Assembly (NCBI RefSeq): GCF_900609065.1
Contig: NZ_UXAU01000010.1
Coordinates: 1-64,000, forward strand
Origin: Arthrobacter ulcerisalmonis
Lineage (GTDB): Bacteria > Actinomycetota > Actinomycetes > Actinomycetales > Micrococcaceae
Length of the DNA stretch: 64,000 bases
Reading direction: 5' to 3'
This document shows positions 22,042 through 25,957 of this stretch, in pieces; position 1 is the first letter of the stretch, and every line of letters begins with the position of its first letter. Position numbers and translations under genes: made by a program. The notes under the pieces are model-generated. The model was given only the letters and a program-made list of their open reading frames with translations, was not told the DNA's origin and searched no databases.

Positions 22042-22575
22042 ATGAACTCAACGCCGAGCCCATACCGCGTCATAACCGTCTGCACCGGCAATATCTGCCG
22101 GTCGCCCATGGCCCAAATTATGCTCACCGAAGCCCTGCCCCGGGAGGGCCTTGCCACGCTGGTCGCCGTGGACTCTGCGGGCACCACGGGCTACGAAGCC
22201 GGCAGGCCCATTGACCCCAGGGCTGCGCGCAGGTTGGCCGCTACCCAGCTGAGTTCAGACCAGCACGTGGCCCGCGAGTGGCAGCCGGAGTGGTTCCGTG
22301 AGCGCGATTTGATCCTGGCCCTTGATGTGGACCACTATGCGTGGCTCAGCCAAGCGGCCCCTGACGGCGAATCGCTGCGGAAGATCCGCATGCTCCGCAG
22401 CTTCGACCCAACCATGGCCGGCTCGGACCTACTGGACCAAGGCATTGAGGACCCCTGGTACGGCGGTCGCGCAGATTTCGACATCGTCTGGCACCAGATC
22501 CGCGCCGCACTGCCGGGACTCGTGGCGCATTTGCGGGCAGCGCCCCAGAAGGAACCGCATCTCAGCTCGCTTTGA
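22042..22575 (+). CDS. Low-molecular-weight protein-tyrosine phosphatase
   Basis: A 177-residue cytosolic phosphatase. The phosphate-binding loop C-T-G-N-I-C-R-S sits at residues 14-21 (CX5R, nucleophile Cys14) and the general-acid DPWYGG near residue 146. It hydrolyses phosphotyrosine and in some actinobacteria works with capsule/exopolysaccharide kinases, but no partner kinase is present here. ATG 22042 is preferred over GTG 21994 because conserved sequence begins at the phosphate loop. The Zur-controlled gene follows after 64 nt under its own promoter. Confidence 0.92.
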   Translation: MNSTPSPYRVITVCTGNICRSPMAQIMLTEALPREGLATLVAVDSAGTTGYEAGRPIDPRAARRLAATQLSSDQHVAREWQPEWFRERDLILALDVDHYAWLSQAAPDGESLRKIRMLRSFDPTMAGSDLLDQGIEDPWYGGRADFDIVWHQIRAALPGLVAHLRAAPQKEPHLSSL

Positions 22576-22610
22576 CTGCTTCGGAAGCGACGAAAAGGCA
22601 CGTTTCTAGT

Positions 22611-22633
22611 TGAGAATGATTCTCATGTAAACT
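22611..22633 (+). promoter_or_regulatory. Zur box overlapping a leaderless promoter
   Basis: TGAGAAT-G-ATTCTCA (22611-22625) is a perfect 7-1-7 dyad of the actinobacterial Zur type. TAAACT (22628-22633) just after it is a candidate -10 element, which would place the start at about 22640 on an ATG. Zn-loaded Zur bound between -35 and -10 would block transcription; zinc starvation would release it. Confidence 0.75.
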
Positions 22634-22639
22634 ATGGGA

Positions 22640-23770
22640 ATGGATCTTCTCCTCATCAGTTCCCTCGATGGACTCTGCCGTCAGCAAGCTTGTGAAGAAA
22701 TAGCTGCAGCGCACCCCGGCAGCGTGCTCGTTGTCCACGATCTGCTCGAGGATGGGTTAGTGATCCGGCGCATCTACCAAGACTCGACCCTGGTAGAGCG
22801 GACAGAGACCACCTTGGAGCACGGTTGCCTCAGCTGCGTGCTGCGACTTGACCTTGTTCCGACGGTGGAACGCCTTCTCAAGGATGCTCCTCGGCCCATC
22901 GTCGTCAGCCTCCCGCCAACTGTCCCCGCGGCTCTGGCGGTTGACGCCCTCAACCGAGGCCTTGGGCACGCCGCCGAGGTGGCTGCCGTGGTTGTGGCCT
23001 GCGCTGCCGACGCACTCGAGGATCATCTCTGGGATGCCCACACCTTGTTCGAATCGGGTTTCACCCCCATCGCCAGCGATGACCGCACCGCCGGCGAGTT
23101 TCTGCTCGGTGAACTCGATTTCGCCGAGACAGTGCTCTTGGCCGCACCGGAGATCGTACCCGTCAATCCTGCCGACGTGGAGCGTGGCAGGCATCTTCTC
23201 CGTGAGCTTGCAGCGCATGCCCACCTCGCCGAGAAGGCGACCCGCCTGCGACCCGGCCGCTTCAACTACGCCACATCCTTGGCGAGGACCCTTCCTGGTG
23301 CGGTCCACCCACCTCGGGGCGGACCGCGCCAGCGCAGCGCCGCTGCGTCGAAGGACCCGAAGCCCCGACAGCCCGCCGCCGTTGGGCCTGGGGCATCGCC
23401 GTTCACCACTGTTTTCCACTCGGCCCACCGACCGCTTCACCCTGGTCGCTTCCGCGAGGCGTTGGGCTCCTTGGCGGCCGGCTGCTGCGTGCTGCGCGGC
23501 CACGTCTGGATGGCTTCGGCGCCTGAGTGCCGGATAGCCGTCCAGGGCATCGGTCCCCGCGTCTGGCTGGAGAATATCGGCGCGTGGCCAGCAAAGTCTG
23601 CCGAAATGCGCGACGGCGGCCACTCCACAGCTGTTTCGGCCACCGGCGAGGGACTCGACGCGGCAGAAATCTTCGCGCTGCTCACCGCCTGCGAACTGAC
23701 GGACGCGGAAATGTCGGCGCTCAACAGCTCATCAGCAGCCAATCAACCACTAGAGAAGGAGACACCATGA
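22640..23770 (+). CDS. COG0523 (CobW-like) protein that has lost its P-loop
   Basis: About 376 residues. COG0523 proteins are GTPase metallochaperones used under zinc limitation. The N-terminus has the right layout, but the Walker A GxxGxGK is missing ([15 protein letters not shown] instead). The metal-binding motif is GCLSC at 62-66, close to the canonical CxCC, and the C-terminal CobW_C domain is recognisable ([20 protein letters not shown], starting near 254). It therefore may bind metal without GTP hydrolysis; the mycobacterial Zur-regulated protein Rv0106 is, as I recall, similarly built. A second ATG at 22634 is possible. It overlaps rpmJ by 4 nt. Confidence 0.85.
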
Positions 23771-23889
23771 AAGTCAGGAATTCGTTGCGGGCCCTGAAGA
23801 AGATCCCGGGCGCACAGATAGTGCGACGCCGCGGGCGGACCTTCGTCATCAACAAGTTGAACCCCCGGATGAAAGCCCGGCAAGGTTAG
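23767..23889 (+). CDS. rpmJ: Zinc-independent ribosomal protein L36 paralogue
   Basis: A 40-residue bL36. It begins [15 protein letters not shown] and ends NPRMKARQG, the L36 frame, but every zinc-ligand cysteine of canonical L36 is absent. Such C-minus copies replace the zinc form when zinc is scarce, freeing zinc from ribosomes. The ATG overlaps the COG0523 stop (ATGA), so the pair is one operon under the Zur box at 22611. It is too short to be called alone but unmistakable in composition and context. Confidence 0.93.
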
Positions 23890-23905
23890 CTGTACGCTCT
23901 AAGCC

Positions 23906-25957
23906 ATGAGCCCAGCCCCCGTCATCATCGCCATCGACGGGCGCTCGGGCGCAGGGAAGACCACACTGGCAGTCGAAATGGCGGCGCACCTGCGCGCACA
24001 CCACCGCGTGTCCCTCTTCCATCTGGAGGACATCTACCCGGGCTGGAACGGGCTGGCCGCCGGCATTGAACGCTACGTGGCTACAGTTCTGCAGCCTCTG
24101 GTCCGCGGCGAGGCGGCAACGTGGACCAGCTGGGACTGGGCTAGGCACTACGACGGCGAACCCCGCGTCACGCTGCCGGCCGAAATCGTGATTGTGGAAG
24201 GGGTGGGCGCGGCGGCGGCCACTGCCCGGCCCTTCCTCAGCGCGGTCATCTGGGCTGAGTCGCCGGCGGACCTTCGTCGGGCCCGGGCCATCAACCGTGA
24301 CGGCGCCACGTACGAACCTTTCTGGGAGCAATGGGCGGCCCAGGAAGATGCTTGGCTTGAAACTGACGATGTCCCACAACAGGCCGGCATTCGGCTGCAA
24401 AATCCCGCGGACGGCACCGCGCCGCAGCAGATCCTGAACCTGCTGCCCTACCTTCCTGCGCTGTCAGGTGTGCTGGCCCCGGAACTGTCAGCCCGGCAGG
24501 CGCTGCGGCTCCATGCCGAGCGGCTCGACCTCACCCCGAATGCCTCGGAGCTCTTCCACACCCTTTACGGCCAATCACCGCGGGCAGTGTGGCTGGACTC
24601 GTCCGACGCAGGCAACCCGGGCGCCGGTTCCAGGAGCCGGTTCAGCATCATGGCCGACGACGGCGGCACGTTCGGCCAGTACGCCACACACCGTTCCGGG
24701 AACACCACCGTCAGCGCGCGAGACGCCGTCGCCACAGTGCCGGGAGGCTTCTTCCGGTGGCTGCACAGTGTCTGGGGCCGCCGCGCCGTCCGAACACCCG
24801 AAGACTATCCCGGCCAGTTCACGCTCGGGTGGCTTGGCTACCTTGGCTATGAACTGAAGCGGGAGACGGGCGGATCCGACCAGAACGCGACCACCCCTGA
24901 CGCCGCCCTGATCTTCGCAGGGCGGGCAGTAGTGCTGGACCATAGCGAGAATTCCGTGTGGCTCCTCGGCCTAGACGCTCCTGACCTAGACCCGTGGTTG
25001 CAGGTTGCCCGATCCGCCGTGGCGAACGCATGCACCGCCCTTACTGGCACCGACACAGCGGCACTAAATGCTGCCCCGAACTTCCGGAGCCGCGACACCG
25101 GCATCGAATACAGGCGGAAAGTTCGAGCCGCGCAGCGGGAGATCGCTGACGGCAACTCCTACGAGGTGTGCCTGACCACATCCCTTGCAGCAACTGTGGC
25201 GGCCGGCGATTTCGATCCCTGGCCGCACTACCTCCGGCTGCGGAGCAGCAACCCTGCCCCGTTTGCCAGCTACCTGGCCTTCGACGGCCTCGCTGTGGCC
25301 AGCACGTCGCCTGAACGTTTCCTCCGGATCGCGTCCGACGGTGCGATGCGGGCCGAGCCTATCAAGGGCACCCGGCGCCGGGGCGCCACCGCCGCTGATG
25401 ACGACGTGCTGAGGGCTGACCTTGCGTCCTCCCCGAAAGACCGGGCCGAGAACATCATGATCGTTGACTTGCTCCGTAACGATCTCAGCCACTTTGCGGT
25501 CCCCGGTTCGGTGACGGTCAGCCGGCTTTGCGCCATTGAAAGCTATGCCACGGTGCACCAGATGGTCAGCACCATTGATGCTCACCTGCAGCCAGGTTCG
25601 GCGCGGGCGGAGGCGGTTGCCGCCTGCTTTCCTGCTGGCTCCATGACAGGTGCCCCTAAGATCAGCACCATGGCCATCCTGGATACGTTGGAGGACGGCC
25701 CCCGTGGACTGTACTCAGGAGCCATTGGTTACTTTTCGCTCAACGGCGCCACGGACCTCGCCGTGGCCATCAGGACGCTGGTTGCCTCCCAGCACTCGGA
25801 AGATGACGCCAGCGCTCATGATGTCCATCTGAGTCTCGGCGTGGGCGGCGCGATTACCGCCGATTCAGTCCCTGAGGACGAGTACCAGGAAATCCGGACC
25901 AAGGCCTTTGGCGTCCTGTCAGCCCTGGGCACCGAATTCCCCAACGACAACGGCTAG
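23906..25957 (+). CDS. pabB: P-loop kinase-like domain fused to aminodeoxychorismate synthase I (PabB)
   Basis: A 683-residue fusion. Residues 1-180 are a P-loop NTPase resembling uridine/shikimate-type kinases: IIAIDGRSGAGKTTLA with Walker A at 12-19, HLEDIYPGWNGL near 36-47, and EIVIVEGVGAA as Walker B. Residues about 230-683 are a chorismate-binding enzyme with EPIKGTRRRG near 483 and PAGSMTGAPK near 575, making aminodeoxychorismate for folate. No PabA glutamine amidotransferase is attached; pabC lies 1.6 kb downstream. The role of the kinase domain is unknown. Confidence 0.9.
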   Translation: MSPAPVIIAIDGRSGAGKTTLAVEMAAHLRAHHRVSLFHLEDIYPGWNGLAAGIERYVATVLQPLVRGEAATWTSWDWARHYDGEPRVTLPAEIVIVEGVGAAAATARPFLSAVIWAESPADLRRARAINRDGATYEPFWEQWAAQEDAWLETDDVPQQAGIRLQNPADGTAPQQILNLLPYLPALSGVLAPELSARQALRLHAERLDLTPNASELFHTLYGQSPRAVWLDSSDAGNPGAGSRSRFSIMADDGGTFGQYATHRSGNTTVSARDAVATVPGGFFRWLHSVWGRRAVRTPEDYPGQFTLGWLGYLGYELKRETGGSDQNATTPDAALIFAGRAVVLDHSENSVWLLGLDAPDLDPWLQVARSAVANACTALTGTDTAALNAAPNFRSRDTGIEYRRKVRAAQREIADGNSYEVCLTTSLAATVAAGDFDPWPHYLRLRSSNPAPFASYLAFDGLAVASTSPERFLRIASDGAMRAEPIKGTRRRGATAADDDVLRADLASSPKDRAENIMIVDLLRNDLSHFAVPGSVTVSRLCAIESYATVHQMVSTIDAHLQPGSARAEAVAACFPAGSMTGAPKISTMAILDTLEDGPRGLYSGAIGYFSLNGATDLAVAIRTLVASQHSEDDASAHDVHLSLGVGGAITADSVPEDEYQEIRTKAFGVLSALGTEFPNDNG

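Follow-up and report, generated by a model that had tools for sequence, protein, structure and literature searches.

The closest described relatives of the protein considered here are mycobacterial. Passages of a 2009 study (PMC2770081) present Rv0106 as a protein without the GTPase motifs that carries CXSC and probably has no GTPase activity. Rv0106 and MSMEG_6069 are described as Mrf (Mpy recruitment factor), a Zur-controlled factor that facilitates the binding of the hibernation protein Mpy to zinc-free ribosomes (PMC7174638, PMC13418864); zinc-dependent turnover by Clp is a further trait of Mrf. A 2020 report on M. smegmatis gives the CobW-like MSMEG_6069, or Mrf, as strongly controlled by Zur and zinc beside alternative ribosomal proteins (PMC7174638). 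Zur control is also reported for several of the COG0523 GTPases of the ZigA, YciC and CobW kind (PMC6103462). In PMC2823685, the Zur footprint consensus of Streptomyces coelicolor is given as TGAAAATGATTTTCA, leaderless transcripts with a Zur site over the core promoter are mapped in Corynebacterium glutamicum, RpmJ already appears in predicted Zur regulons and zur is reported beside a znuABC-type operon in Arthrobacter. The papers on Mrf that we found all concern mycobacteria, and our literature search found no work tying Arthrobacter, Zur, L36 and zinc together.

The window (the whole 64,000-nucleotide stretch of Arthrobacter ulcerisalmonis DNA analysed here) carries an operon that looks like a variant of the Mrf system. 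A first-pass annotation had taken it for a zinc-sparing module with a Zur-type box, a description that is borne out by a conserved box and by a cysteine-free L36 gene whose start overlaps the stop of the COG0523-like gene by 4 nt (ATGA). The features are as follows.

22611..22625, strand not assigned: predicted Zur box, TGAGAAT-G-ATTCTCA, a perfect 7-1-7 inverted repeat (sequence, conservation)
22628..22633, plus strand: probable -10 hexamer TAAACT (sequence; TANNNT kept in 37 of 39 genes)
22640..23770, plus strand: Mrf-like, P-loop-less COG0523 protein of 376 amino acids with CobW_C (sequence, profile searches, trees)
22826..22837, plus strand: codons of CLSC (CxxC; C63-x-x-C66 counted from ATG 22640), a probable zinc site (sequence, conservation)
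23754..23761, plus strand: Shine-Dalgarno-like AGAAGGAG before the L36 start (sequence)
23767..23889, plus strand: rpmJ2, a cysteine-free (type B, C-) L36 of 40 amino acids (profile models, sequence)

The first protein has its overall layout and CobW_C domain in common with ZigA, YciC and CobW, but differs from these GTPases in that it lacks the P-loop, the Walker B glutamate and NKxD, and in that CxSC replaces CxCC. It had been annotated as a COG0523-type protein that keeps GCLSC and has lost Walker A, and the searches agree. In Pfam, CobW_C scored over its cut-off (37 versus 22 bits) and the N-terminal nucleotide-binding cobW domain under it (13.5 versus 20.7 bits); the metal motif is CLSC within GCLSC, with the middle cysteine of the CxCC of COG0523 GTPases missing; and G-x4-GK[ST] is absent from all six frames of 22300-23905. 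There is therefore no hidden P-loop in another start or frame, the possibility against which the annotation had wished its reading to be checked. Over the P-loop region an aligned Mrf has TPVVLVAGQGD where a canonical protein has LPVTVLSGFLGAGKTT and the window column is LPP. Both P-loop-less groups, that of the window protein and that of Mrf, also show changes in the columns of Walker B and NKxD. The start at ATG 22640 is conserved in two relatives, L005 and L006; the ATG at 22634 given in the open reading frame list is GTG and GTC there, and was discarded as not conserved. At 23726-23770 the C terminus of the window protein does not share the DPFGL ending seen in L005 and L006, and the frame continues into the start of L36; this end of the protein may have been rebuilt here.

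The best NCBIfam match is NF047431, the Mrf family, whose full name is 'ribosome hibernation factor-recruiting GTPase MRF' (E-value 1.5e-25; 90 bits, the cut-off being 375), with ZigA at 48 bits. By itself this match is weak evidence, because L080, a canonical ZigA-like protein with a P-loop, reaches 181.8 bits with NF047431 and thus outscores the window protein. AlphaFold2 models built from three-row alignments (window, L005 and L006) had a mean pLDDT of 48.9 for the whole protein and 59.2 for residues 1-205, and with these two poor models Foldseek returned no match at E <= 0.001: the top match of the whole, low-pLDDT model was the E. coli COG0523 protein YjiA (4ixm) at a non-significant E of 0.012, and residues 1-205 gave no sensible match. 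A PDB sequence search with the window protein yielded a single match, to a designed barrel (E 0.031), which was dismissed as not meaningful.

Two relatives were found among the named genomes, in Arthrobacter sp. Leaf141 and Pseudarthrobacter sp. NamE2, both Micrococcaceae; they are 61 and 58% identical to the window protein and group with it in the trees (support 99 in a quick 95-row tree and 100/99 in a 58-row tree). In relatives at 58-61% identity the frames are intact, and the CxxC and many invariant residues are kept. Matches to NF047431, canonical proteins included, occur at E <= 0.001 in 66 of the 197 genomes of the family, none of the 197 being over the cut-off, and in 141 of the 394 genomes of the class, of which 25 are over it. 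The loci that we read were the best 30 per search together with 39 added regions, one of them in the window's own genome, and so represent better-scoring matches and a hand-picked spread, not a random sample. They were sorted into 39 Micrococcaceae rows (window included), 25 Mrf rows over the cut-off, 23 other P-loop-less rows and 8 canonical rows; L085, L093, L094, L095, L097 and L098 were left out of the motif and neighbour counts by group and treated separately. A P-loop is present in all 8 canonical proteins and in 0/39, 0/25 and 0/23 of the Micrococcaceae, Mrf and other P-loop-less proteins, respectively, whose rows span 12 families of Actinomycetes. The CxxC is found in 39/39, 25/25 and 21/23 of the same groups and, as CxCC, in 8/8 canonical proteins. 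The further P-loop-less homologues with Zur boxes that the first-pass annotation had suggested looking for do occur in the Micrococcaceae, with no P-loop in any of the 39 and a Zur-type box before all of them. An E[ST][ST]G string in eight of the 39 Micrococcaceae proteins lies at position 297 or beyond in the open frame, and was rejected as not being at the Walker B position. Although NCBIfam names NF047431 a GTPase, a P-loop is found in 0/25 of its over-cut-off members, and the members read do not support that label for Mrf.

Midpoint rooting of the quick 95-row tree put the canonical rows inside, and smaller row sets with outgroups were used for descent, from which the outgroup regions L119 and L120, with no match to the P-loop pattern, were left out. 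In the 58-row tree, with 13 P-loop COG0523 rows from Actinomycetes and Proteobacteria, the 45 P-loop-less rows, among them the window protein and Mrf, form one clade (100/100). With the P-loop, cysteine, Walker B and NKxD columns removed and eight CxxC-less rows added, all 53 P-loop-less rows again form one clade (100/99), within which the earlier 45 rows stay together (100/98). The window clade, of 17 rows, forms a separate branch (100/100), apart from the over-cut-off Mrf members; a grouping of the window clade and Mrf alone is rejected (AU p 3e-6), and the test does not reject a tree that sets the window clade on the canonical side of the remaining P-loop-less rows (AU p 0.29). The window branch may thus lie either within the P-loop-less clade or at its base. 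With the caveat of long branches and few COG0523 outgroups, the trees are most simply read as a single loss of the GTP site, in an actinobacterial ancestor from which Mrf and the window protein probably descend along different branches.

The P-loop and the middle cysteine look to have been lost in separate events, because L067 and L068, relatives of the named Streptomyces record L126, are P-loop-less and read NDCACC, with the CxCC cysteines kept. Seven COG0523-like proteins examined from other genera of the family (L093, L094, L095, L097, L098, L111 and L112) have neither a P-loop nor any CxxC; they score higher with the ZigA model than with the Mrf model, yet the tree puts them with the P-loop-less clade. 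At L093, L094, L111 and L112 the gene is divergent to a type B L36 gene, with a Zur-like box of one or two mismatches between them; L095 has a box and no L36 in the stretch, and L097 and L098 have neither. As the L36 link is present in four of the seven CxxC-less loci, zinc sensing by CxxC would not be essential to every L36-linked member, which makes this sister lineage a natural test of zinc sensing by CxxC.

The closest known system is Mrf itself (MSMEG_6069/Rv0106; NF047431). Like Mrf, the window protein is P-loop-less, has a CxxC, lies behind a Zur-type box near a gene for a zinc-free ribosomal protein and belongs to the same clade. However, it sits on a separate branch and under the family cut-off (90 versus 375 bits), and its partner is L36 rather than the L28, L33, S14, S18 and L31 of Mrf.

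At the promoter, the perfect TGAGAAT-G-ATTCTCA dyad noted in the first pass is exact: TGAGAATGATTCTCA stands at 22611-22625, 14 nt upstream of ATG 22640, and differs at 2 of 15 bases from TGAAAATGATTTTCA (PMC2823685). The site is the sole place in the 64-kb window with three or fewer mismatches to TGAGAATGATTCTCA, which as a palindrome is counted on both strands. Because 14 of 100 shuffles gave at least two matches at this loose threshold, the dyad is only moderately unusual from the window alone, and conservation is the stronger evidence. All 39 Micrococcaceae promoters, that of the window included, have a 15-mer with at most two mismatches to TGANAATNATTNTCA within the 45 nt before the start; in 37 of them 12-15 nt separate the box from the start, and a TANNNT ends 6-8 nt upstream of the start in 37 of the 39 genes. 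The exceptions to this layout are L096, L087 (box at 16 nt) and L024 (no TANNNT), of which L096 reflects the start codon chosen by the script, its near-copy L032 fitting the rules for both box and TANNNT. The Micrococcaceae layout is that of a predicted leaderless promoter with the operator directly upstream of the -10, and transcription would probably begin with the A of ATG 22640 or close to it. The impression of a leaderless promoter with the box beside the -10, formed from the window in the first pass, agrees with TAAACT at 22628-22633 and ATG 22640 here, and the layout recurs in most of the 39 genes. A scan of the locus for standard (sigma-70) -35/-10 promoters and terminators found none. 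The leaderless Zur promoters of C. glutamicum (PMC2823685) have a Zur site overlapping the core promoter and a start at the ATG, the layout predicted here; they serve other genes.

With at most one mismatch, TGANAATNATTNTCA occurs at three places in the genome (reversed control, 0): this promoter, the gap between the divergent genes aztA and aztB, and the inside of an unrelated open frame (C69:187266), which is probably chance. The 7-1-7 repeat thus stands at zinc-gene promoters, as expected of an actinobacterial Zur box, aztA/aztB being the second site; the box there has one mismatch, and both AztA and AztB are over their NCBIfam cut-offs. The aztA/aztB box, at G000:C51:33642-33656 (L116:2143-2157), lies near the start codons in the 46-bp gap between genes of a zinc ABC transporter. 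A Fur-family gene adjoins a znuABC-type operon in the same genome. The putative repressor is identified by its neighbour genes, because it is below every Zur model cut-off (42.2 versus 167 bits) and the znuABC-type stretch read holds no box with two or fewer mismatches. The regulatory side of the finding is expected, not new, since the consensus, the leaderless Zur transcripts and RpmJ in Zur regulons all stand in PMC2823685.

The second gene was annotated as an L36 without zinc ligands, and rightly so: it encodes no cysteine and scores over the cut-off with the type B model NF002021 (74.3 versus 70 bits) and under it with the ordinary rpmJ model (18.6 versus 22.7 bits). As with the rpmJ2 of E. 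coli and other bacteria (PMC6103462, Table 3), an L36 paralogue appears here under a Zur-type box; unlike those, the window rpmJ2 shares its operon with an Mrf-like gene. A second copy of L36, with the zinc ligands CxxC..C..H, is present in the same genome (G000:C35:23186-23296). Zinc-binding and zinc-free pairs were sought for L36, S14, L31, L28 and L33, and L36 is the only such pair among the five: S14, L31, L28 and L33 have one match each, without cysteine except for one in L28. The assembly, in 73 contigs, has a stated completeness of 99.94%, so that a missed ribosomal protein copy is unlikely but possible. Of the five tested, L36 is thus the one protein still open to a swap, in keeping with an operon that carries L36 alone. 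The sole matches for L28, L33, S14 and L31 (at G000:C36, that is L113, and G000:C66, that is L114) are cysteine-poor, zinc-free types, and the genome seems to have given up zinc for good in these four proteins. It also encodes one long HPF with both S30AE domains; this discriminates little, because 11 of 14 control genomes have HPF-type proteins too. Its only match to PF02492 is UreG (323 versus 204 bits).

Neighbouring genes set the P-loop-less proteins apart from the canonical ones. We looked for open reading frames resembling zinc-free-type L28, L31, L32, L33, L36, S14 and S18 (phmmer, E <= 1e-5, seven seeds, the seed families being confirmed for all seven, L36 among them), and found one in the fetched flank at 24/25 Mrf loci, at 37/38 Micrococcaceae loci (always L36, downstream) and at 17/23 other P-loop-less loci, a total of 78/86, compared with 3/8 canonical loci, in two of which the fetched stretch contains a P-loop-less gene as well. 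These neighbours mostly have no or one cysteine; 12 of the 170 have 2-4, at least partly from over-long starts assigned by the script. On Tsukamurella and Streptomyces plasmids (named records), the gene lies among rpsR, rpsN, rpmG, rpmB, type B L31 and rpmF. Conversely, a search of the family for type B L36 (E of 1e-15 or better, a threshold set at a gap in the list) found 78 places, spread over 77 genomes; an NF047431 match lies within 2.5 kb at 59 of these and not at the other 19. Five of the 66 genomes with an NF047431 match have no such type B L36.

We propose the following mechanism, to which we would assign a probability of roughly 0.55: a Zur-repressed zinc-starvation operon whose first gene encodes an Mrf-like factor that hibernates or remodels ribosomes with a swapped L36. 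As zinc falls, Zur would leave the dyad, and a leaderless mRNA would yield the Mrf-like protein together with the translationally coupled zinc-free L36, which would take the place of the zinc-binding L36 and so spare zinc. The Mrf-like protein descends from a COG0523 GTPase; it has lost the GTP motifs and retains CobW_C along with a CxxC, a probable zinc site. If Mrf is a guide, the protein with an empty CxxC would be stable, accumulate and help the long HPF onto L36-swapped ribosomes, thereby parking zinc-free ribosomes; when zinc returns, it would become zinc-bound and be removed. The frame of this model, namely the motifs and their losses, conservation, gene order, common descent and the presence of HPF and of an L36 with zinc ligands, is established here. 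That Zur binds the box, and that the protein binds zinc and ribosomes, recruits HPF and is turned over, we infer from Mrf.

The same facts could be read without the ribosome. The protein would then be a nucleotide-independent zinc chaperone or reservoir that hands the zinc of its CxxC to essential enzymes in starvation, with L36 merely a co-regulated saver. Descent from COG0523 metal proteins is in keeping with this, as are the CxxC in 39/39 proteins and the Zur-type box, and with UreG as the genome's only PF02492 match the role of a COG0523 chaperone would be vacant. Yet the P-loop, Walker B and NKxD are lost, the clade lies beside zinc-free-type ribosomal proteins at 78/86 loci against 3/8 for canonical proteins, and the CxxC-less sister lineage retains the L36 link at 4/7 loci, all of which makes the chaperone unlikely. 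We consider it unlikely, too, that the protein is an exchange factor that removes zinc-L36 or loads zinc-free L36 on the 50S subunit, instead of recruiting HPF. The Micrococcaceae partner is indeed L36 alone (37/38), type B L36 lies near an Mrf-like match at 59/78 places, and L36 is the sole pair of the five tested in this genome; against this, no Mrf-like match was detected within 2.5 kb at 19 of the 78 places, and loci of the Mrf, Streptomyces and Tsukamurella types have other ribosomal partners, so that no L36-specific chemistry is implied for the clade.

That the whole GTP site is gone might also suggest a functionless, decaying pseudo-enzyme, retained through translational coupling to L36. 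The intact frames, the CxxC and the many invariant residues in relatives that are 58-61% identical, along with the conserved promoter architecture, speak against decay, and we give this reading very little credence. The hibernation or remodelling factor remains our preferred reading. As a more tentative and somewhat doubtful extension, zinc exchange in Micrococcaceae ribosomes may be confined largely or wholly to L36 (with L28, L33, S14 and L31 zinc-free for good), and this minimal switch may include a dedicated, GTP-less COG0523 protein that acts on L36-swapped ribosomes only, by marking, remodelling or silencing them, the sister lineage doing likewise without the zinc-sensing CxxC.

The first-pass annotation had further argued that this branch probably works as a metal binder or scaffold in a new way. 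Such a role comes near to that reported for Mrf; the novelty falls away, as the Rv0106 type was described in 2009 in the passages cited above (PMC2770081), and the claimed new mechanism is mostly explained by Mrf. Within the literature searched, what seems new is the dedicated pairing with L36, a P-loop-less clade that is broad and apparently arose once, and its sister lineage without CxxC. New, too, is that among the five ribosomal proteins tested L36 alone has both a zinc and a zinc-free form. The 12 families of Actinomycetes and the one loss of the GTP site in the trees suggest that a ribosome-directed role may be old and general, and bacteria with a single swap would be simple systems in which to study the recognition of a zinc-free ribosome by such a factor.

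The next gene downstream (23906-25957) joins a kinase-like P-loop N terminus (a sub-threshold PRK match) to a PabB-like chorismate-binding enzyme, and the start of a gene of this type also follows L36 in L005 and L006.
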